The position numbers were made by a program, and so were the translations under genes. Shown here one piece after another: positions 6,755 through 22,238 of a DNA stretch of 64,000 nucleotides. The stretch is from the NCBI GenBank assembly GCA_947463095.1, contig CANHRE010000005.1, positions 1 through 64,000 of the forward strand. Reading direction: 5' to 3'. Numbering within the stretch: the stretch's first letter is position 1; every line of letters begins with the position of its first letter. This DNA comes from Flavobacteriales bacterium (lineage in GTDB: Bacteria > Bacteroidota > Bacteroidia > NS11-12g > UBA955). The notes under the pieces were generated by a model. That model ran no database searches. It was not told the DNA's origin and saw only the letters and a list, made by a program, of their open reading frames with translations.

Positions 6755-8764
6755 ATGAAAGTATATATCTCTGTGTTCACCCTGGTGCTCCTCGGCATGC
6801 AGGCTGTTCAAGCCCAGAATCCGACCGACACCTTATTCACCTTCGGCCCTCATGTGGTCAGCGTAGAGGAGTTTGAACGAGGCTTCCTGAAAAACAAAGA
6901 CCTCAGCAACCAAAAACCTGATGCAGCAGAAGTGGATGACTACCTCAGGCTCTACCAGCGCTTCAAACTGAAGGTCCAGGATGCCTATGACCTGAAGCTG
7001 GACACCATCCCGCAATTCATCCAGGAACTCAACGGCTACCGCCGCCAGCTGGCTAAGCCCTACCTGAGCGACCGCGAAGTAACTGACCAGCTGATGAAGG
7101 AAGGCTACGAGCGCATGCAATGGGAAGTGAGTACCGCTCATATCCTCGTCCTCTCCCGCCAGGATGACTTACCCGAAGATACCCTCAAGGCCTGGAATAA
7201 AATACAGGCCATCGCCGCTGAACTGGCTAAAAATCCCGAGAAGTTCAACGACATCGCCTTCGAAAAAAGTGAAGACCCCAGCGCTAAAGAAAACCGCGGT
7301 GAACTGGGATATTTTACCGCTTTCCAGTTTGTGTACCCCTACGAAACGGTGGCCTTCAGCACTCCCGCCGGTCAGATCAGCAGGGTGTTCCGCACCAGCT
7401 ACGGCTACCACATCCTGAAAGTACTGGACCGCCGCCCGAATGCCGGTGAGATGAAGGTGGCTCACCTGATGCTGCGCCTGTCGCCCAATGCCAACGGCGA
7501 TGAACTGCAGCAGAAGAAATCCAAGATGGATGAAATTTATGCCGAAATCCGCAAGGGTACCCCCTTCGAAGAACTGGTGGCCCGCTGGAGCGAGGATTAT
7601 TCCACCAAATCCATGAACGGGGAAATGGATTACTTCTATGCCACCGCCCACCTGAATGGTGAACTTACCCCTGAGTTTACAGAAGCAGCCTTCTCCCTGA
7701 AAAACAACGGAGATGTTTGTGTGCCCTTCCGTACCCCATACGGCTTCCACATCCTGAAACGCCTTGACCTGAAGCCGCTTCCCTCGTATGAGGAAATGAA
7801 GCCTGTGCTGAAACAGAACATCTCCAGCGACAGCCGTTCCTACAAAAGCACGCAGGCCATGATTGCCAAAATCAAGCAGGAGTACGGATTTATGGAATAT
7901 CCCGAAAACCTGAAAACATTCAGCAACACATTGGATACCAGCCTCCTCAAGGCCATGTACCTGAAGGGCTCCGGTCCGGCATACAGCCTGCCGCTGTTCC
8001 GCCTGGGCAACGAAGATTTTAGCGCCGACCGCTTTGCAGGATTCCTGGTGGCCATGCAGCGTCCTTCCAAGCTGAAGCAAGTGGCTGCCGTGCTCAATAC
8101 CTACTACAAAAATTGGGTGGATGCCAGCTGCATCGATTTCCTGGACCGCCACCTCTATGAGAAATATCCTGAATTTGCAGCCCTCTATCAGGAATACCGC
8201 GAAGGCATCCTGCTGTTCAACCTGGCTCAGGATAAGGTATGGAATAAAGCCATCCGCGATACAACCGGGCTGGATGCATATTTTAAAGTCAATGCTTCCC
8301 GCTACTCCTGGGAAGACCGGTTCCACGTGAGCATCTACAATGCCCGCACCGAAAGCATCATGAAGTCGGTAGCTAAGATGATCAAGAAAAAAATCAGCGA
8401 TGATTCCATCTACCGTTACCATACCAAAGAAAGCCTGCTAAACCTGAGCATCCAGGACGGTAAGTTCGAATGGAAAGACAGCAATGCTTTTGTGCAGGAA
8501 CTGTTCGCAGCAGGCAGCAAATACCGCAACAAGAAGAATTATACCTGGATGATGGGACAGCGTGGCAACGACCAATGGCTGGTAATCCGCATCCACCAGT
8601 TCCTGCCCGCTGGCTCCAAGTCGCTTGACGAAACCCGCGGCCCCGTGATCAGCGATTATCAGACAGTGCTTGAAGATGCCTGGGTGGATGAGGTTGCCCA
8701 ACGCTATCCGCTTGTCGTGAATGAACGCGCGTTCCAACAGCTTAAGGAGCGCCTTACCCGGTAA
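6755..8764 (+). CDS. Peptidylprolyl isomerase with tandem parvulin-type (PpiC) domains, exported
   Basis: Signal peptide MKVYISVFTLVLLGMQAVQA; two parvulin-like blocks (AHILVLSRQDDLPED...YGYHILKVLDRRP and AHLMLRLSPNA...YGFHILKRLDLKP). Confidence 0.88.
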   Translation: MKVYISVFTLVLLGMQAVQAQNPTDTLFTFGPHVVSVEEFERGFLKNKDLSNQKPDAAEVDDYLRLYQRFKLKVQDAYDLKLDTIPQFIQELNGYRRQLAKPYLSDREVTDQLMKEGYERMQWEVSTAHILVLSRQDDLPEDTLKAWNKIQAIAAELAKNPEKFNDIAFEKSEDPSAKENRGELGYFTAFQFVYPYETVAFSTPAGQISRVFRTSYGYHILKVLDRRPNAGEMKVAHLMLRLSPNANGDELQQKKSKMDEIYAEIRKGTPFEELVARWSEDYSTKSMNGEMDYFYATAHLNGELTPEFTEAAFSLKNNGDVCVPFRTPYGFHILKRLDLKPLPSYEEMKPVLKQNISSDSRSYKSTQAMIAKIKQEYGFMEYPENLKTFSNTLDTSLLKAMYLKGSGPAYSLPLFRLGNEDFSADRFAGFLVAMQRPSKLKQVAAVLNTYYKNWVDASCIDFLDRHLYEKYPEFAALYQEYREGILLFNLAQDKVWNKAIRDTTGLDAYFKVNASRYSWEDRFHVSIYNARTESIMKSVAKMIKKKISDDSIYRYHTKESLLNLSIQDGKFEWKDSNAFVQELFAAGSKYRNKKNYTWMMGQRGNDQWLVIRIHQFLPAGSKSLDETRGPVISDYQTVLEDAWVDEVAQRYPLVVNERAFQQLKERLTR

Positions 8765-11179: not shown

Positions 11180-12013
11180 ATGGCTACCGTGTTTCCCTCG
11201 TTGCGCCAACAGGACCCCCGCAACTTCCAGTTGCTCTACCTTGGCCTGTTCCTGAGCTATGGCATTGCCTTTCTGGGCTGGCACCGCGACTGGTTTCAAA
11301 CGCTGGTGCTCTGGTGCTCCTGCCTGGGCACCCAATACCTGTTCTGCCGGCTGTATGGCAAGAGCCTCGATGCCCTGAAAAGCGCCATGATTACCGCGCT
11401 GGGACTCACCCTGCTCCTGCGGGCAGGTTCCCCCTGGGTCTATGCCGGAGCAGGAAGCCTGGCCATAGCCTCCAAGTTCCTCATTCGCTTCCGCGGGAAG
11501 CACCTGTTTAACCCCGCCAACCTGGCCCTGGTGGTGTGGGTGCTGCTGCTCAAACAAGCCTGGGTGTCACCAGGGCAATGGGGAAGCAGCGCCATACTCA
11601 TCTATTTCATCGGGGCCGCCGGCATGATGGTGCTTTTTCGCTCTTCCCGCGTGGATACCGCCTTCAGTTTTCTGGGCGTGCTCTTCGTGCTGGAAGCCAC
11701 GCGAAACTGTCTGTACCTGGGCTGGCCCGCCGATTACCTGTTCCACCGCTTCTCCAATGGCAGCCTGCTGCTGTTCAGCTTCTTCATGATTACCGACCCG
11801 ATGACCACGCCCGACCGACGCGCAGCACGTATGCTCTGGGCCGCCCTCACCGCGCTAATCACCTTCCTGCTGGGCAACTTCATGTACCTGCAGAATGCCC
11901 CTGTGCCCGCGCTCTTCATCATGAGCCTGTGCACCCCGCTGTTTGACAGCCTCTGGAAAGCAGAACGCTTTCAATGGCTACCACGTAAAACATCCAATTA
12001 CCAGACCATATGA
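11180..12013 (+). CDS. RnfD/NqrB-like membrane protein
   Basis: GKHLFNPANLALVV and FFMITDPMTTPDRRAARMLWAAL match NqrB/RnfD family features; predicted multi-TM. Confidence 0.75.
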   Translation: MATVFPSLRQQDPRNFQLLYLGLFLSYGIAFLGWHRDWFQTLVLWCSCLGTQYLFCRLYGKSLDALKSAMITALGLTLLLRAGSPWVYAGAGSLAIASKFLIRFRGKHLFNPANLALVVWVLLLKQAWVSPGQWGSSAILIYFIGAAGMMVLFRSSRVDTAFSFLGVLFVLEATRNCLYLGWPADYLFHRFSNGSLLLFSFFMITDPMTTPDRRAARMLWAALTALITFLLGNFMYLQNAPVPALFIMSLCTPLFDSLWKAERFQWLPRKTSNYQTI

Positions 12014-13473
12014 ACATCCTGAAAAAACTCCTGCTGCCGGTCGTTTTGACCTGCCTGAGCGCGGTTGAAACCCAAGCCTTCTGCGGCTTCTATGTGGCCA
12101 AAGCCGGCGCCTCCCTGTACAACGAAAAGAGCGAAGTAATCATGGTCCGCGACGGACAGCGCACGGTCATCACCATGAGCAACGACTTCAAAGGCGCTGC
12201 CACCGACTTTGCCATGGTGGTTCCCGTGCCCCATGTGCTGAAAGAACAGGACATCCGCGTGGTCGACCGCGGCCTGTTCGATCGCTTCGATGCTTACTCC
12301 TCTCCGCGCCTCGTGGAATACTTTGATCCCGCACCTTGCGGCTACCGGGAAGTGTCGGTGGTTACCAAGCGGATGATGCGCAGCGCCAATGAATCCACGG
12401 ATGATGTACGCGAGCAATTGTCGGAGGTAGACTATGGTGTGCACATTGAAGCCAGCTATACCGTGGGTGAGTACGACATTCTGATTCTTTCTGCGGAAGA
12501 AAGCAACGGGCTCAAGACCTGGCTCATCAAAAACGGCTATAAGATTCCGGAGTCGGCCAACGAGGTGCTGCAACCCTATATCAACAGCGGCATGAAGTTC
12601 TTTGTGGTGAAGGTGAACCTGGAAGCGGCTGCGCAAACTGGTTACCAATACCTCAGGCCCATACAGATCAGCATGAATACCGATAAGTTCATGCTGCCCA
12701 TCCGACTGGGCATGGCCAACAGCAAGGGCGAGCAGGACCTAATCATCTACGCCATCACCCGCGGCGGCGCCGTGGAAACCACCAATTACCGCAACCTGCG
12801 CATGGTTACCGGAAGAACCGTGCCCACCTTCGTGAAGACCCATTTCGACCGCTTCTATACCGACCTGTTTGCCCGGCAGCATGGCAATGAAGGGCGCAAT
12901 GCCGTGTTCACCGAATACGCCTGGGACGTCACCCCGAACTGGGGCATCAAGTGCGATCCCTGTGTTGGCAATCCCCCGCAGTACAACGACCTGATCAGCG
13001 CCGGGGTGGACTGGCTGGACATGAGCAACCCGCAGGGTGGCAACGGCGCCTTCTTCACCCGCATGCACGTGCGCTACGGCAGGGCGCAGTTCCCGCAGGA
13101 CCTGATGTTCAACACCACCTCCAACCGGGAATCCTATCAGGCGCGTTACATAATCAACTGGCCTGCCGGCGGCGACATGAGCTGTCCGGAAGCCCGCAAG
13201 TACCTGAGTGGTCTGCCCAACCGCCGCCGCATGGAGCTGATGGAACTGGGCGCCCTCACCGGCTGGGACATCAGCCTGTACAAGCAATACGAACAGGATG
13301 GCATGGATCCCGGCATCCGTGAAGGCGAACAAAAAGGCATGTTGCCCATCCGCTACAACAAGCGCAATGATCCACCGGCCGGCGGTCAGGGCCCGGTATG
13401 GTTCCTGTTGGCCGGAATCCTGGCCACGGGCCTGCTGCTGGCCTTGCCCGTGCTGAAAAGAGCGCATCCTTAA
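12010..13473 (+). CDS. DUF2330 domain-containing exported protein with C-terminal TM segment
   Basis: CGFYVAKAGASLYNEKSEVIMVRDGQRTVITMSNDFKG...FAMVVPVP as in DUF2330; C-terminal hydrophobic helix; overlaps upstream CDS by 4 nt. Confidence 0.82.
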   Translation: MNILKKLLLPVVLTCLSAVETQAFCGFYVAKAGASLYNEKSEVIMVRDGQRTVITMSNDFKGAATDFAMVVPVPHVLKEQDIRVVDRGLFDRFDAYSSPRLVEYFDPAPCGYREVSVVTKRMMRSANESTDDVREQLSEVDYGVHIEASYTVGEYDILILSAEESNGLKTWLIKNGYKIPESANEVLQPYINSGMKFFVVKVNLEAAAQTGYQYLRPIQISMNTDKFMLPIRLGMANSKGEQDLIIYAITRGGAVETTNYRNLRMVTGRTVPTFVKTHFDRFYTDLFARQHGNEGRNAVFTEYAWDVTPNWGIKCDPCVGNPPQYNDLISAGVDWLDMSNPQGGNGAFFTRMHVRYGRAQFPQDLMFNTTSNRESYQARYIINWPAGGDMSCPEARKYLSGLPNRRRMELMELGALTGWDISLYKQYEQDGMDPGIREGEQKGMLPIRYNKRNDPPAGGQGPVWFLLAGILATGLLLALPVLKRAHP

Positions 13474-13558: not shown

Positions 13559-14415
13559 TATGGCAGAGAACGTAAACCACGGTACGCATAAAACTTTTAA
13601 TACCTGGCATCCTGAGCCCGCCTGTCATCCTGAGCCTGTCCTTTAGACTTGCAGAAGGTTACTTAGCGGATAAAACACATCACCCAGAGAGGATTATCTG
13701 AAAGACAATAATTTTTAATATTGTCATGAGTAAGCTAAACAGCCGAACTACGAACCACCAAGGGTATGGAAAATCTTATGGTTCGATTCCTACAAGTATG
13801 GGCAATCTGCTCTGGAACCAGATCCATTTTCCATTATCAATTATCCATTCTTACCCATTCTCAAAAAAAACTCAAAAATATTCCCCACCTAACTACCTCA
13901 TAACAAAACACTTAACCCCAAACCCGCCCCCAAACTGCGCAAAATTAGCCACGCCAAACTTGTTATTGTACATCATAACCCTATACATTTATCTTCCCTC
14001 CATGTTGCACTTATACCCTTATCCTGCAAACATCTTTTTGCCGCTTGATGCCGATTGCGATGCGGGGAATCCACAAGATTATATAAAAAACCAAGGGCCA
14101 TACCGGCTTCTGGCTTATGCTGCCAACGGAAAGGATTGTTTTGCGGGTAGGGTGCTGGTTGAACAAAGGGAAAGAAAACTAGACCGTTACAACAGAATAC
14201 GGGAAATAGGGGTAGGGAAACTAGGCCTTTAAGTAAGTTATAAGCAAGGCTATGAAGACCACGCGAACAGCGGAAATCCACAGGCTGAAAAGAGACAGAA
14301 ACCCACCTAAACCAACACAGGTTTGTCTGACAGACCATTTTAGAACTCTTGAAAAGTAAACTGACTTGGAGGTAAAACGAAGACTTGTTGCACAAAAAAA
14401 AATAATATCAAAAAA

Positions 14416-14901
14416 ATGAAACATATCACAAATATTAGTTTGCTAGTGGCGTTATATTTCACTGGCAGCAGCAACGTGTTAGCTGACAAAATCAAGAAAC
14501 ACCGAGATCAATTACGGTCAGGTTATGACAAAGTAGAATCAAAGGAAATCTATATGGTTGGTGCTAATGGGGCCATGGAACACGTTCGAACAGATGTATG
14601 GTGCACAGGTGGTGGTTCACAGAAATTTAGAGCTTCTAGTATAGCGCATCCTTACCCCCTCAATGAACTTGACATCTTTGGGAACGAATACACTGTAGCT
14701 GAGAAAGCAATCGCAGAAAGTGTTCTAATTGATGGTGACACACAAATTGAAGGTGGTTCGACTTCAGGTACTACCACTCAAACTGTTCAATTTGTAAACA
14801 CATCAACAGGTCTATCATATTATAGAACATTCTCTTACGTATGGATAACTAATTCAAACGGAGCTGTTAATAGCTCGCTTGTCATTTCTGAACGGTTTTA
14901 A
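14416..14901 (+). CDS. Small exported hypothetical protein, AT-rich cassette gene 1
   Basis: Predicted signal peptide MKHITNISLLVALYFTGSSNVLA; 14 nt before the next CDS; resembles the 14916 product. Confidence 0.7.
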   Translation: MKHITNISLLVALYFTGSSNVLADKIKKHRDQLRSGYDKVESKEIYMVGANGAMEHVRTDVWCTGGGSQKFRASSIAHPYPLNELDIFGNEYTVAEKAIAESVLIDGDTQIEGGSTSGTTTQTVQFVNTSTGLSYYRTFSYVWITNSNGAVNSSLVISERF

Positions 14902-14915
14902 TTAAATTTATATTT

Positions 14916-15398
14916 ATGAAATATAAAATAATATCAATTGCCATATTGGCTTTTATGGCTTTCGATTGCTCAGCCTATGTACTGATAATTAAAAAAATCA
15001 AAGTAGGCGGTGATGGTAGTGGTAATTACGATTACGTGAACAGAACTGTAACTGATAACACTATTGATATCGAAGGAATACCAAGACTTCAATCACGAAC
15101 GATTTCAATATTTTGTGCTGGAATTGGTGGAAACGCTTGTCCAAATAATATAGCTTATATTGGAGGCGGAAATGAAGAACAACCCGTAATCTCGGAACTC
15201 TTTACATTGGAAGCAATAAATGCCGCACAGATGCTGCTCAACAATGCTGAGGTCCAAAGTTCCTCTGGGCAAGTAAGTGGCAACAACCGTGGTACTATTG
15301 TTACTCCAGACGGCAGGCAGTACCTTTATTATATATCTTGTAATACAGATGTTTCGGGTATTAAACATATTAATATGATATTTCAGGATGCTTCATAA
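14916..15398 (+). CDS. Small exported hypothetical protein, AT-rich cassette gene 2
   Basis: Predicted signal peptide MKYKIISIAILAFMAFDCSA; C-terminal half alignable by eye to the 14416 product. Confidence 0.7.
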   Translation: MKYKIISIAILAFMAFDCSAYVLIIKKIKVGGDGSGNYDYVNRTVTDNTIDIEGIPRLQSRTISIFCAGIGGNACPNNIAYIGGGNEEQPVISELFTLEAINAAQMLLNNAEVQSSSGQVSGNNRGTIVTPDGRQYLYYISCNTDVSGIKHINMIFQDAS

Positions 15399-16602
15399 CA
15401 TCAACATCTATTTAAGTTTCACTAATGTCAGAAGGAAGATTATAACAATCTTTTTTCTGATTTACCATTGTAGTGTTGTTTACTCGCAAAATTCATCCTT
15501 TCATCTCGATTCCGTGCTGTATTTTGACGAAATCCCAGTAACGTACAGCGAGGTTTCAAGGATTGTTTCATCAAAATCATACGGAGACATATTTTACATA
15601 GCTTTTATCCGTGATAACAATTTTCACCTATATACGTATAATCATTCGAAAAAGCTTCTTAAAAAAGATAATTTCAAATTAAACAGCAAACTGGCCATTG
15701 GTATGAAACCTTATGATTTTGTTGTTACTGATAATGATGTATATGTACTTTTGGATAAAAAGATACATTGTCTATCAAAGGCCAAGATGAAGGAAGTATA
15801 TTCGTTTTACTGCGGAAGAGCAGAGTATTTGTTTTTGTCGCAGGAGCATATCATTGCTGGATTTTATTATAATTATCATCCGGATGACAGCCCTTATAAG
15901 GCAGGTCTCAGAAAGTTTAATTTACAGGGTATTCAAGAAGACAGTGTCTTTTTGGACCTTCCATTTCCGGAATACACGCACTATCTTCCTAGAAACCTAA
16001 TATCGTATAATGGTAAAAAATTTGTGTTTCCGTCCTTTTGGGGGTTAAACTTCCTCTTTGTGGACAAGGACTTTAGACACATTGACACCCTCTTTTTGGC
16101 TGTTGACAAATATGACAGTACCTGGGTTTTCCCTTCTCAGGCTCTTAGTAAATCCATAGCTGAAAATATGGACAATCTCTCTTTATATTGGGGTCTACTT
16201 GATAATGCTAATTCATCTAAAGTTTCAAGAATTGAATTTGTAGAATTCACTGATTCTAATAATCTTTTGGTGCGTTGGTTCAGCCCCAACCCAAAGAGAG
16301 GGTATTCAGACAGATTTTCAATGAATCTAAAGAATATTGCAGGCTCCTGGAAACCTCAGGAAGCCGTTTCATATTTAGAGACACCCATACCATTTAATAC
16401 AAGTCTAAATATCTATGCAGGTGGTATGCCTTTGCTTTCACACAACTTTTTGACGAGTTATTCCCCAAAACATATTTATCAAATAAAGATTGATATTCCA
16501 TATGTTGAAAGTTTAACGTATAAAGAATATTATCAACGAAGGATGGAAAAGGAAAAGGTATTAGATCCAATTATATCCCTATGGGTGTTCAAATATGACT
16601 AA
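15388..16602 (+). CDS. Exported beta-propeller-like protein, AT-rich cassette gene 3
   Basis: Signal-like N-terminus ending VVYSQ; repeating beta-rich blade-like pattern as in 6-bladed propeller proteins of Bacteroidota; overlaps gene 2 by 11 nt. Confidence 0.6.
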   Translation: MLHNINIYLSFTNVRRKIITIFFLIYHCSVVYSQNSSFHLDSVLYFDEIPVTYSEVSRIVSSKSYGDIFYIAFIRDNNFHLYTYNHSKKLLKKDNFKLNSKLAIGMKPYDFVVTDNDVYVLLDKKIHCLSKAKMKEVYSFYCGRAEYLFLSQEHIIAGFYYNYHPDDSPYKAGLRKFNLQGIQEDSVFLDLPFPEYTHYLPRNLISYNGKKFVFPSFWGLNFLFVDKDFRHIDTLFLAVDKYDSTWVFPSQALSKSIAENMDNLSLYWGLLDNANSSKVSRIEFVEFTDSNNLLVRWFSPNPKRGYSDRFSMNLKNIAGSWKPQEAVSYLETPIPFNTSLNIYAGGMPLLSHNFLTSYSPKHIYQIKIDIPYVESLTYKEYYQRRMEKEKVLDPIISLWVFKYD

Positions 16603-17116
16603 ACGTTCCTTTATAATATGCCTACTCACATTCACTGGGTGTACGAATCTAAAACTGGCAACCCCTCCCATTGGTAGCCCTCAGTTACAGGTTTGCAATT
16701 TAGATAATGATACGACTGAAGTAACGCTTGTTGGGAAAGTTTCAGTTCTAGTGTTTATTAAAGAACCCAGTTGTACAGGCTGCAAGGAATATTTAGCGAA
16801 ATACCTGAATACGCTCAATAAGAAATACCATCAATATATTATTATCGGCAAGTCACAAAGTATCTTGGACAAGAAAAGCTACCGTAGCTATCTTGATTTG
16901 AGATTTAAAAACTCTTTAGGAATATACTATTCTATGAGTGAAAGCTCTATAACTATTCGCTTAAACCACAAGGATTACATTTTCGACACAAGAATAAACC
17001 CATTTGTAATGGTTATTTCAGAAAAGGGCAGCTCTGTTGATATTTACAACTACCAAGAAGTTTTCGAAAATGTGTTTGTAAAAGAATCGTTTAAGAAATC
17101 TATGAACGGATATTAG
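16595..17116 (+). CDS. Thioredoxin-like lipoprotein, AT-rich cassette gene 4
   Basis: Lipobox-like LLTFTGC; VLVFIKEPSCTGCKEYL with CxxC; possible cis-Pro segment RINPFVMVIS; overlaps gene 3 by 8 nt. Confidence 0.6.
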   Translation: MTKRSFIICLLTFTGCTNLKLATPPIGSPQLQVCNLDNDTTEVTLVGKVSVLVFIKEPSCTGCKEYLAKYLNTLNKKYHQYIIIGKSQSILDKKSYRSYLDLRFKNSLGIYYSMSESSITIRLNHKDYIFDTRINPFVMVISEKGSSVDIYNYQEVFENVFVKESFKKSMNGY

Positions 17117-17227
17117 CTTAGAAATAAGGATGAGACACATAAAAAACGAACCGTCAACCTTTAGCTGAATCTGAGGACTGGCATTGCCCATACCGCTCAA
17201 ACAACGCATCGCTTCCTGAACAAACCA

Positions 17228-17315: not shown

Positions 17316-17645
17316 ATGATGCCCGCACTCCGACTGCACTACCTGTACCGTGATGATGCCGACAGGTTGACGCATGGCAGCTTCGATTTCAGCAATCCGG
17401 AACAACTGGGCGTGAAGCAGGCCATGGGTATGCTGGAGCCGCTGTTGATCGGTGAGGTGTTTATCATTCCCAACAGGGTAGGGCTGCCGGCGTTGGATCC
17501 TGTTGACAGTGGGGAAGACGACGACTACCACGAGGTGGAATCGCTGGAAGTTATTGAGCTGGAATCAGCCCAGGGGCCTATATTCCATGAATTCATCGAG
17601 AAGCTGCGCCGCTTTAAACAGCAAAATCCTGAAGAATACTGGTAG
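17316..17645 (+). CDS. Hypothetical protein (109 aa)
   Basis: ORF with normal composition in the gap before polA; no recognised domain. Confidence 0.5.
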   Translation: MMPALRLHYLYRDDADRLTHGSFDFSNPEQLGVKQAMGMLEPLLIGEVFIIPNRVGLPALDPVDSGEDDDYHEVESLEVIELESAQGPIFHEFIEKLRRFKQQNPEEYW

Positions 17646-20666: not shown

Positions 20667-22238
20667 TTAATCGGCTGCCACCTGTATCCGCAGCATTTTA
20701 TCTCCCACCTGAAGCAGGTAAATGCCTGGGGAGCAGGCCCGCAGATCAACTGGCATTTCCGCAGGCTGGTGCAGCAGCGCGCGGCCGTTCAGGTCATAGA
20801 TGTGCAGGAGTTCACCCGGGGCACTTCCTGTTACGAAGAGCACCCGGTTTGCGGGATTAGGATACACCAGCAGTGATCCCTGTGACGAGGTATGTTGAAC
20901 GCCAGTGGATTGGCAGGTAGTAGCACCGCCGGTAAGGCTTTCCAGTTCGCTGCACAGGTATTGATAATGCTTTGCCGCTGTTACATCCAGTGGCGTCGCG
21001 AGCAGGTTTTTTCCTTCTCCGGGGTCTTTGGCCAGATGGTAGAACTCCTCCTTCCCATTGTCAAAGCGCAACAGTTTATAGGATTGGTCTTTAATGCATT
21101 TTCCATCGCCTGAATAGGCAGGAACCTGAAACAGTTCGCTGAAGGCCCAGGGACGTATGGAATCCTTTGCAGCGCTGATGATGGGCCACAGGCTGCGACC
21201 GTCGGTAGTCAGTCCTGCCGGTAATTTATCGTTCAGCCCCAACAGACCCGGTATGGTTTCAAACAAATCTACCGACTGCACCAGGGCGTCGGAAGTTCTT
21301 CCTGGCTGCCGTACTGATGGGCCGGAGATGATTAAAGGCACATGAATGCCATACTCGTAGATGCTGCCTTTTACCCTGGAAGTATCGGCTGTCTGGGCTG
21401 TTTGCTTGGTGTTGCCATTGTCGCCAATAAAGATGAAGTCTGTGCTGTCCAGGCGGTTCATGCTGCGCAGCGTATCCATGAGGCGTCCTATTTCGTGGTC
21501 CATGGCCTGAATCATGGCTTTGAAATAAGATTTGGGCCGGGCCTTGATGTCCTGGGCTGTGCCGCTCAGGGTGGTGTAGCTGTGCAAGCCTGCCGGGGGA
21601 AGGTGATAGGGCGAATGAGGGGCGTTAAAGGCAAGCCAGAGGAACACCGGCTTCTTTCCCTGGGTGCGCAGCCAGCTGATGGCATTGTTCACCTGCTCGG
21701 TGGTGGCGTAGGTGGTTACAGTGCTGTTTACCCCATTGGTATTCTTGGTCCAGTTGGTATAGCTGTTCAATTGCCCGATGAAAGGCCCTTCGTAGTGCTC
21801 ATAGCCGAAGAAGTTGGGCATTTTCAGGTTGCTTTGAGGCATTGGGTTGTTCAGGTGCCATTTCCCGATCTGTGCCCTTCCAATACCGGGTTTGGCATTG
21901 CGGATGCGCTGGGGGAGGGTAAACTCACTGCTGTCCATTTGTCCGCTGCCGGCGGCTACTACAGCCCCGATACCGGTGCGGAATGCATAGCGTCCGGTGA
22001 ATAGGGTAGACCGGGTAGCAGAACAATACGGGTTGGCGGTGAATTGATGGAACAGGACACCCTTCTTGAGCAGGGCGCGGATGTTGGGCACCGCCACGGT
22101 ATCACCGTGGTCAGGGTAGAAGCCTAAATAATCCGGGCTGAGGTCGTCGGCGATAATCAGCACCACACTGCGCTGTGAGAATAGGGCGGCGGCTCCTTGC
22201 GCGAGGCAAATGAACAGCAGCAGGGTAAGTTTTTTCAT
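20667..22238 (-). CDS. Sulfatase with T9SS sorting tail
   Basis: VVLIIADDLSPDYLG, Cys-type CSATRSTLFTGR, GDNGNTKQTA; C-terminal VYPNPANRVLFVTG...GIYLLQVGDKMLRIQV. Confidence 0.9.
   Translation of the reverse strand: MKKLTLLLFICLAQGAAALFSQRSVVLIIADDLSPDYLGFYPDHGDTVAVPNIRALLKKGVLFHQFTANPYCSATRSTLFTGRYAFRTGIGAVVAAGSGQMDSSEFTLPQRIRNAKPGIGRAQIGKWHLNNPMPQSNLKMPNFFGYEHYEGPFIGQLNSYTNWTKNTNGVNSTVTTYATTEQVNNAISWLRTQGKKPVFLWLAFNAPHSPYHLPPAGLHSYTTLSGTAQDIKARPKSYFKAMIQAMDHEIGRLMDTLRSMNRLDSTDFIFIGDNGNTKQTAQTADTSRVKGSIYEYGIHVPLIISGPSVRQPGRTSDALVQSVDLFETIPGLLGLNDKLPAGLTTDGRSLWPIISAAKDSIRPWAFSELFQVPAYSGDGKCIKDQSYKLLRFDNGKEEFYHLAKDPGEGKNLLATPLDVTAAKHYQYLCSELESLTGGATTCQSTGVQHTSSQGSLLVYPNPANRVLFVTGSAPGELLHIYDLNGRALLHQPAEMPVDLRACSPGIYLLQVGDKMLRIQVAAD

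Follow-up and report, generated by a model that had tools for sequence, protein, structure and literature searches.

The window analyzed here, the whole 64,000-nucleotide stretch of DNA, contains four co-oriented genes, A to D, that form a real, co-inherited cassette with relatives across the Bacteroidota. In our reading, this is an export cassette, as yet undescribed and transferred horizontally, in which D would set the disulfide of the small proteins A and B, and C would bind them. We favor this reading tentatively, at slightly short of an even chance. The A/B family, with its CxGxGx3C motif, and the function of the cassette are previously undescribed; NVEALA and the TolB-like propeller, to which the cassette is compared below, are already Pfam families.

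Genomic organization of the locus

Gene A (positions 14416-14901, forward strand) encodes a small exported protein of 161 residues and is followed by gene B (14916-15398, forward strand), encoding a small exported protein of 160 residues, a paralogue of A. Gene C (15388-16602, forward strand) encodes a 404-residue exported protein predicted to be a six-bladed propeller, and gene D (16595-17116, forward strand) a 173-residue lipoprotein that is probably thioredoxin-like. The four ORFs proposed at 14416-17116 by an earlier sequence-only reading of this DNA are all present and intact, with a 14-nt gap between A and B and overlaps of 11 nt between B and C and of 8 nt between C and D. The AT-richness claimed in that reading is borne out by a GC content of 0.36-0.39 in 1-kb bins, as compared with 0.50-0.58 around; gene by gene, the GC content spans 34-39% over the four genes and is 0.34-0.37 for B to D, as compared with 0.54 in the flank. 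The same holds for the claim of ordinary chromosomal neighbors. A DUF2330 protein gene lies on the left (12010-13473, forward strand), beside polA also in the same-genus genome G356, and polA lies on the right, beyond a 109-residue ORF (17316-17645, forward strand). Since the sequence of this ORF runs on unbroken in G356, it is part of the chromosomal flank. A sulfatase gene (20667-22238), whose product bears a C-terminal sorting domain for type IX secretion, adjoins polA.

Inspection of the N-termini reveals export signals on all four products, as had been proposed. A and B start with signal peptides of the ordinary type (MKHITNISLLVALYFTGSSNVLA and MKYKIISIAILAFMAFDCSA, respectively) ending with LA/SA, C with a hydrophobic signal peptide ending with VVYSQ, and D possesses a lipobox (LTFTGC). 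A type IX sorting tail was detected in none of the four products. A promoter scan returned a result no better than chance.

The small proteins A and B

The resemblance between A and B reflects true homology, as reported by hhalign (93% probability, E 3.5e-7, hhalign pair E-values having no database calibration). Searches of Pfam, NCBIfam, PADLOC, and PHROGs yield nothing usable for A to C, which agrees with the earlier statement that A and B match no recognized family; both are paralogues within an undescribed and unnamed protein family. The family alignment comprises 39 rows, from which two loci (L102 and L104) were excluded as apparently false or unrelated matches. A C-x3-G-x3-C pattern is found in 32 of the 39 members, with a chance expectation of 0.65% per sequence upon shuffling, and the strict CxGxGx3C motif in 21 of them. 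The other conserved features of these 39 members are a G-[YFW] pair near the mature N-terminus, an SG pair ahead of the last strands, and a Trp residue. In the window, gene B encodes a C-x-G-x-G-x3-C-P motif at 15114-15140, while the gene A motif (KIKKHRDQLRSGY), located 3' of the signal peptide, reads CTGGGSQKF: the second family cysteine is lost, and the single motif cysteine codon lies at 14602-14604. An additional 137-residue protein of locus L011 can be aligned with both A and B.

The AlphaFold2 model of B, built with the 39 sequences (pLDDT 86, pTM 0.79), predicts three β-strands, an α-helix, and three further β-strands in this order. Foldseek comparison of this model with the PDB and with viral structures returns TM-scores of at most 0.26 when normalized by the query length, and the matches with PAS and fluorescent-protein folds were rejected as noise at this level. 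Likewise, sequence searches of the PDB with the profiles of the small proteins and of C report only chance-level matches. Two A-type genes, those of the second cassettes of genomes G219 (L013, region 7826-8333) and G297 (L018, 7755-8240), each contain one in-frame TAG, at different positions, which would reflect either decay or recoding.

The propeller protein C and the CxxC protein D

The AlphaFold2 model of C, built on an eight-row alignment (pLDDT 80.5, pTM 0.81), displays six four-stranded blades, as counted by reading the DSSP strand list, the N-terminal strand closing the last blade, and closure involves both the N- and C-terminal strands. With its Foldseek matches to propellers, this model lends weight to the earlier description of C as propeller-like. 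The top PDB hit, and nearest solved fold, is BF0058, a putative exported protein of Bacteroides fragilis (4raa, E 5.1e-8, TM 0.54/0.60); however, both proteins share only 13% identity, superimpose with an rmsd of 6.3, and 4raa is missed by the profile search. A text search of the open literature returned no paper naming BF0058. The comparison made with six-bladed propeller lipoproteins does not hold for the anchor, as C is no lipoprotein by its sequence. None of 35 C relatives matches PF15869 at an E-value of 0.1, and profile comparison with this family gives a probability of 7%. The C profiles of separate cassettes also reach a probability of only 7% in hhalign, the subgroups being too divergent to join, and the argument for a single C family across cassettes comes from shared position, similar length, and one model. 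Using tblastn, C has no match in plasmids or phages, nor has B in plasmids. In the G219:C5 cassette, gene C (L011 3023-4245) is split by a frameshift that represents either an assembly error or a pseudogene. Together with the TAG-bearing A-type genes of L013 and L018, this frameshifted copy suggests that some cassette copies may be decaying.

The CxxC of the window D protein is CTGC (16772-16783), and the proline of a later P-x-hydrophobic motif is encoded at 17000-17002. The CxxC (C60/C63) follows the first strand and is invariant in all 22 D relatives, most of which also possess a later proline, usually as (T/S)P, ahead of a hydrophobic strand in the fashion of thioredoxins. The best matches of the D profile are weak and correspond to Dsb/thioredoxin chains (3tdg, E 0.0048; 2l5o, E 0.052; 8pxe, E 0.083), while single D relatives weakly match the Thioredoxin, AhpC-TSA, and Thioredoxin_2 families (E ~0.003; 0.0025 for Thioredoxin_2). 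The predicted thioredoxin fold of D rests on these weak matches and on the motifs. D shares with the TlpA/Dsb-like periplasmic thiol-disulfide oxidoreductases the export or lipid anchor, the CxxC after a strand, and the later (T/S)P, but it is short, divergent, and falls under every curated cut-off. Its earlier designation as a CxxC lipoprotein is correct for the window protein, which has both lipobox and CxxC, and does not extend to the whole family, as the lipobox is not found in every relative. Moreover, a D-type CxxC gene is missing from several cassettes (L062, L064-L067, and L069-L071), and D is therefore either dispensable or supplied from elsewhere.

Conservation of the cassette

A search of 110 genomes of the order identified C relatives in seven genomes. 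Complete A-B-C-D sets amount to five relatives (L011, L013, L014, L015, and L018) spread over three further genomes from this order. In L014, L015, and L011, the A, B, and D proteins are 43-65% identical to those of the window, C being 52-54% identical in L014 and L015; the complete sets of L013 and L018 are more distant. The genome of the window itself carries a second cassette (L060, on G000:C32), of which a sister copy exists (L061). The genes around the A-B-C-D relatives differ from locus to locus. A search of genome contigs reported a single match, JAGFIU010000014.1, a relative already found.

The profile of the small proteins retrieves more loci, both within the order and in additional families that belong to the phylum but not to the class, where the succession of a small gene, a gene for a protein of ~400 residues, and a CxxC gene is found in L092, L095, L096, L098-L101, and L103. 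Nearly all small-gene loci have an exported protein of ~400 residues next, often followed by a CxxC protein. The next same-strand gene is an ORF of 340-470 residues in 26 of 30 loci, as compared with 22 of 307 other genes of the same DNA, and the third gene encodes a CxxC protein in 18 of the 30 loci by reading; these locus counts are not phylogenetically independent, and many of the genomes are fragmented drafts. Four loci depart from the next-gene rule: L063 stops at a contig end, L011 has a frameshift, L099 has one extra small ORF in between, and L091 is an orphan. The sequence-only reading had staked its case on the four genes being conserved together and on the small ORFs being conserved. 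The cassette is indeed co-conserved in the order and beyond the class, and the small ORFs are conserved and, as judged from a pair of close copies, evolve under purifying selection. These copies, G000:C32 and G356:C272, yield an omega of 0.19 for each small gene, 0.14 for C, and 0.28 for D, as compared with 0.04 for polA and 0.09 for DUF2330. The genes of the C32-type cassette are thus real coding genes under purifying selection that evolve faster than core genes, and no gene-wide positive selection is detected in this comparison.

Two further observations concern the surroundings of the relatives. In L011, the A-B-C-D cassette is immediately preceded by a divergent pair formed by a small gene and a gene for a 410-residue propeller-like protein (L011 117-1768); this pair belongs to a subgroup, also found in L065, L067, L069, and L070, that lacks a CxxC gene and shows another cysteine pattern. 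A 1483-residue Cas9-like protein (RuvC_III, HNH_4) is encoded right after the G219:C14 cassette (L013 1008-5459).

Mobility and the upstream repeat

Comparison of the window with the G356 locus (L124) by blastn shows that the matches end at 13448 and restart at 17202, leaving the segment 13449-17201 without counterpart in G356. In that genome, DUF2330 and polA are adjacent with no cassette between them, and the polA protein is 94% identical to that of the window. The cassette is therefore accessory. An insertion here and a loss in G356 are indistinguishable from one comparison, and the low GC content favors insertion. AT-richness is no inherent property of these cassettes, as the second cassette of the genome, on C32, has a host-like GC content of 0.50-0.56.

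The leader upstream of gene A (14165-14415, forward strand) is repeated with 83% identity on G000:C27 (6350-6604), where it precedes unrelated AT-rich genes. Its core of ~75 bp (about 14170-14245; CTAGACCTATACAACAGAATA...CTAGACCTATAAGCAAGTTA) occurs at five sites of the genome, the window included, the others being the C27:6350-6604 region, C14:40580-40655, C33:454-541, and C111:3891-3980. On C27, C33, and C14, the core is located directly 3' of the end of a truncated tyrosine recombinase, and the best family for the C27 and C33 remnants is the integron integrase (TIGR02249, E 2e-16). A repeat positioned behind integron-integrase-like remnants suggests an integron in reverse orientation or a similar capture site; an integrase oriented towards its cassettes is known for the Treponema integrons (PMC3607928). 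The likeness to these platforms lies in the repeat behind integrase-like C-terminal remnants at the three other sites. In contrast with them, the remnants of this genome are truncated, the window locus has no integrase remnant, and a probe made of the upstream-site sequence detects no second copy after gene D at up to three mismatches; lacking both at the window, we do not claim an integron cassette. A large serine recombinase is encoded just upstream of the G297:C4 cassette (L015 8515-10164) and would be another possible means of transfer.

Proposed mechanism and alternatives

In the mechanism that we tentatively favor, A and B would be the products which the cassette exists to export. D, as a membrane-anchored thioredoxin-like protein, would oxidize, reduce, or isomerize the CxGxGx3C disulfide of the small proteins, and C, a periplasmic or surface propeller, would bind them as a scaffold, a receptor, or a protective partner. 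The earlier idea of a paired-substrate system with redox or metal chemistry fares well on its redox side, the CxxC and later (T/S)P of D and the cysteine pair of the small family being consistent with it, while we infer the action of D on A and B. The loss of the second cysteine in the window A protein and the several cassettes devoid of D count against this disulfide mechanism. The most likely use would be that of an exchangeable exported factor acting between cells, in competition or signaling. This is the weak step of the mechanism, and cell-to-cell action is ranked first, with low confidence, because of mobility and divergence; such a factor would fit the patchy presence and fast divergence of the cassette.

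The same traits would suit an interbacterial toxin formed by A and B, with C as immunity or carrier protein and D as disulfide maturase: the cassette is mobile, patchy, fast-diverging, and present several times per genome, and its small exported disulfide proteins come in pairs. We consider this rather unlikely, as PADLOC and PHROGs report no defense or phage family, selection on the small genes is not positive on average (omega 0.19), C, which is exported, would be a large immunity protein, and the architecture is unchanged across the phylum. Copper chaperone pathways (TlpA/Sco) combine a cysteine pair with a thioredoxin-like partner, and the cysteine pair of A/B could similarly bind copper, iron, or heme, with D as reductant, C as sensor or docking protein, and a neighboring TonB receptor as partner; a TonB receptor plug protein is indeed encoded ahead of the second cassette of the genome (L060) and of its sister (L061). 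However, no TonB gene adjoins any other cassette, the 39-row alignment reveals no conserved ligand beyond the cysteine pair, D is missing from many cassettes, and such patchiness would be surprising for a core metal pathway, which makes metal or heme handling unlikely.

A structural or adhesive role of A and B at the cell surface, as matrix or appendage subunits with C and D as assembly factors, is very unlikely. Exported tandem paralogues made of a six-stranded sheet and helix module would be appropriate to this role, but neither profile nor fold searches return a credible pilin or adhesin match, and no type IX sorting tail was detected in the four proteins. Finally, the AT-rich insertion, the in-frame stops in two relatives, the frameshift in a third, and the cysteine lost in the window A protein might denote functionless remnants of a decaying genomic island. 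This is highly improbable, given that the window retains all four ORFs in intact, overlapping form, that all four genes of the sister cassette are under purifying selection (omega 0.14-0.28), and that the architecture recurs across the phylum.

Relationship with the NVEALA loci

The sequence-only reading had noted a loose resemblance to Bacteroidota loci that pair small exported peptides with propellers. PF14055 (NVEALA) matches neither A and B nor any of the 39 relatives and is absent from the genome of the window, but it is present in G073 and G108. There, the loci comprise an NVEALA peptide, a PF15869 TolB-like propeller (E 1e-78 to 1e-86), and a CxxC protein with the sequence STGCTSC, fused to DUF1573 in two of three cases and in one case matching the thiol-disulfide oxidoreductase StoA (E 8e-5). 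The NVEALA loci L118-L120 and the window thus share one order, in which a small gene precedes a gene for a propeller-fold protein and then one for a CxxC protein, and both cassette types are found several times per genome. The CxGxGx3C motif occurs in three of the 10 NVEALA peptides examined (CNGIGSLDC, CLGYGSIDC, and CYGWGDIEC), which are those of the loci with propeller and CxxC protein; each is expected in <0.1% of shuffles, the three loci being related and not independent. Profile comparison of the NVEALA and window small families yields an alignment at the motif only (69% probability). The differences are that the small proteins of the window have twice the length and lack both the NVEALA motif and any PF14055 match, that the window propeller is by sequence not a PF15869 member, and that the CxxC proteins of both types can be aligned only around the CxxC (hhalign 67%).

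The resemblance therefore holds for gene order and for the subset of peptides with CxGxGx3C, and fails for membership in PF14055 and PF15869. The window cassette is built like the NVEALA loci and, by analogy, probably works like them; as membership in both families was tested and failed, we take it as a system that works like the NVEALA loci and not as one of their members. None of the 5.4 million open papers covered by a text search names NVEALA. The window ties the NVEALA peptides and their propeller neighbors to a larger family represented in several families outside the class, and this family offers a longer, confidently modelled small protein with a clear cysteine signature. As the three- or four-gene set is compact and can be expressed heterologously, substrate, partner, and redox enzyme are directly testable, which makes the window cassette a handle on the role of the NVEALA clusters. 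A broader proposal, which we regard as possible but doubtful, is a phylum-wide modular export system in which very rapidly diverging CxGxGx3C proteins of a new fold would have their disulfide processed by a thioredoxin encoded in the cassette and be bound by a propeller specific to each cassette, the whole set being exchanged among Bacteroidota for competition or signaling between cells, with NVEALA representing a shortened branch. No S26 signal peptidase neighbor is seen for the window cassette, in contrast with the NVEALA loci, near which one is encoded in L118 (13335-14225, tested) and a similar-looking one in L120 (3293-4180); it is perhaps a dedicated maturation peptidase.
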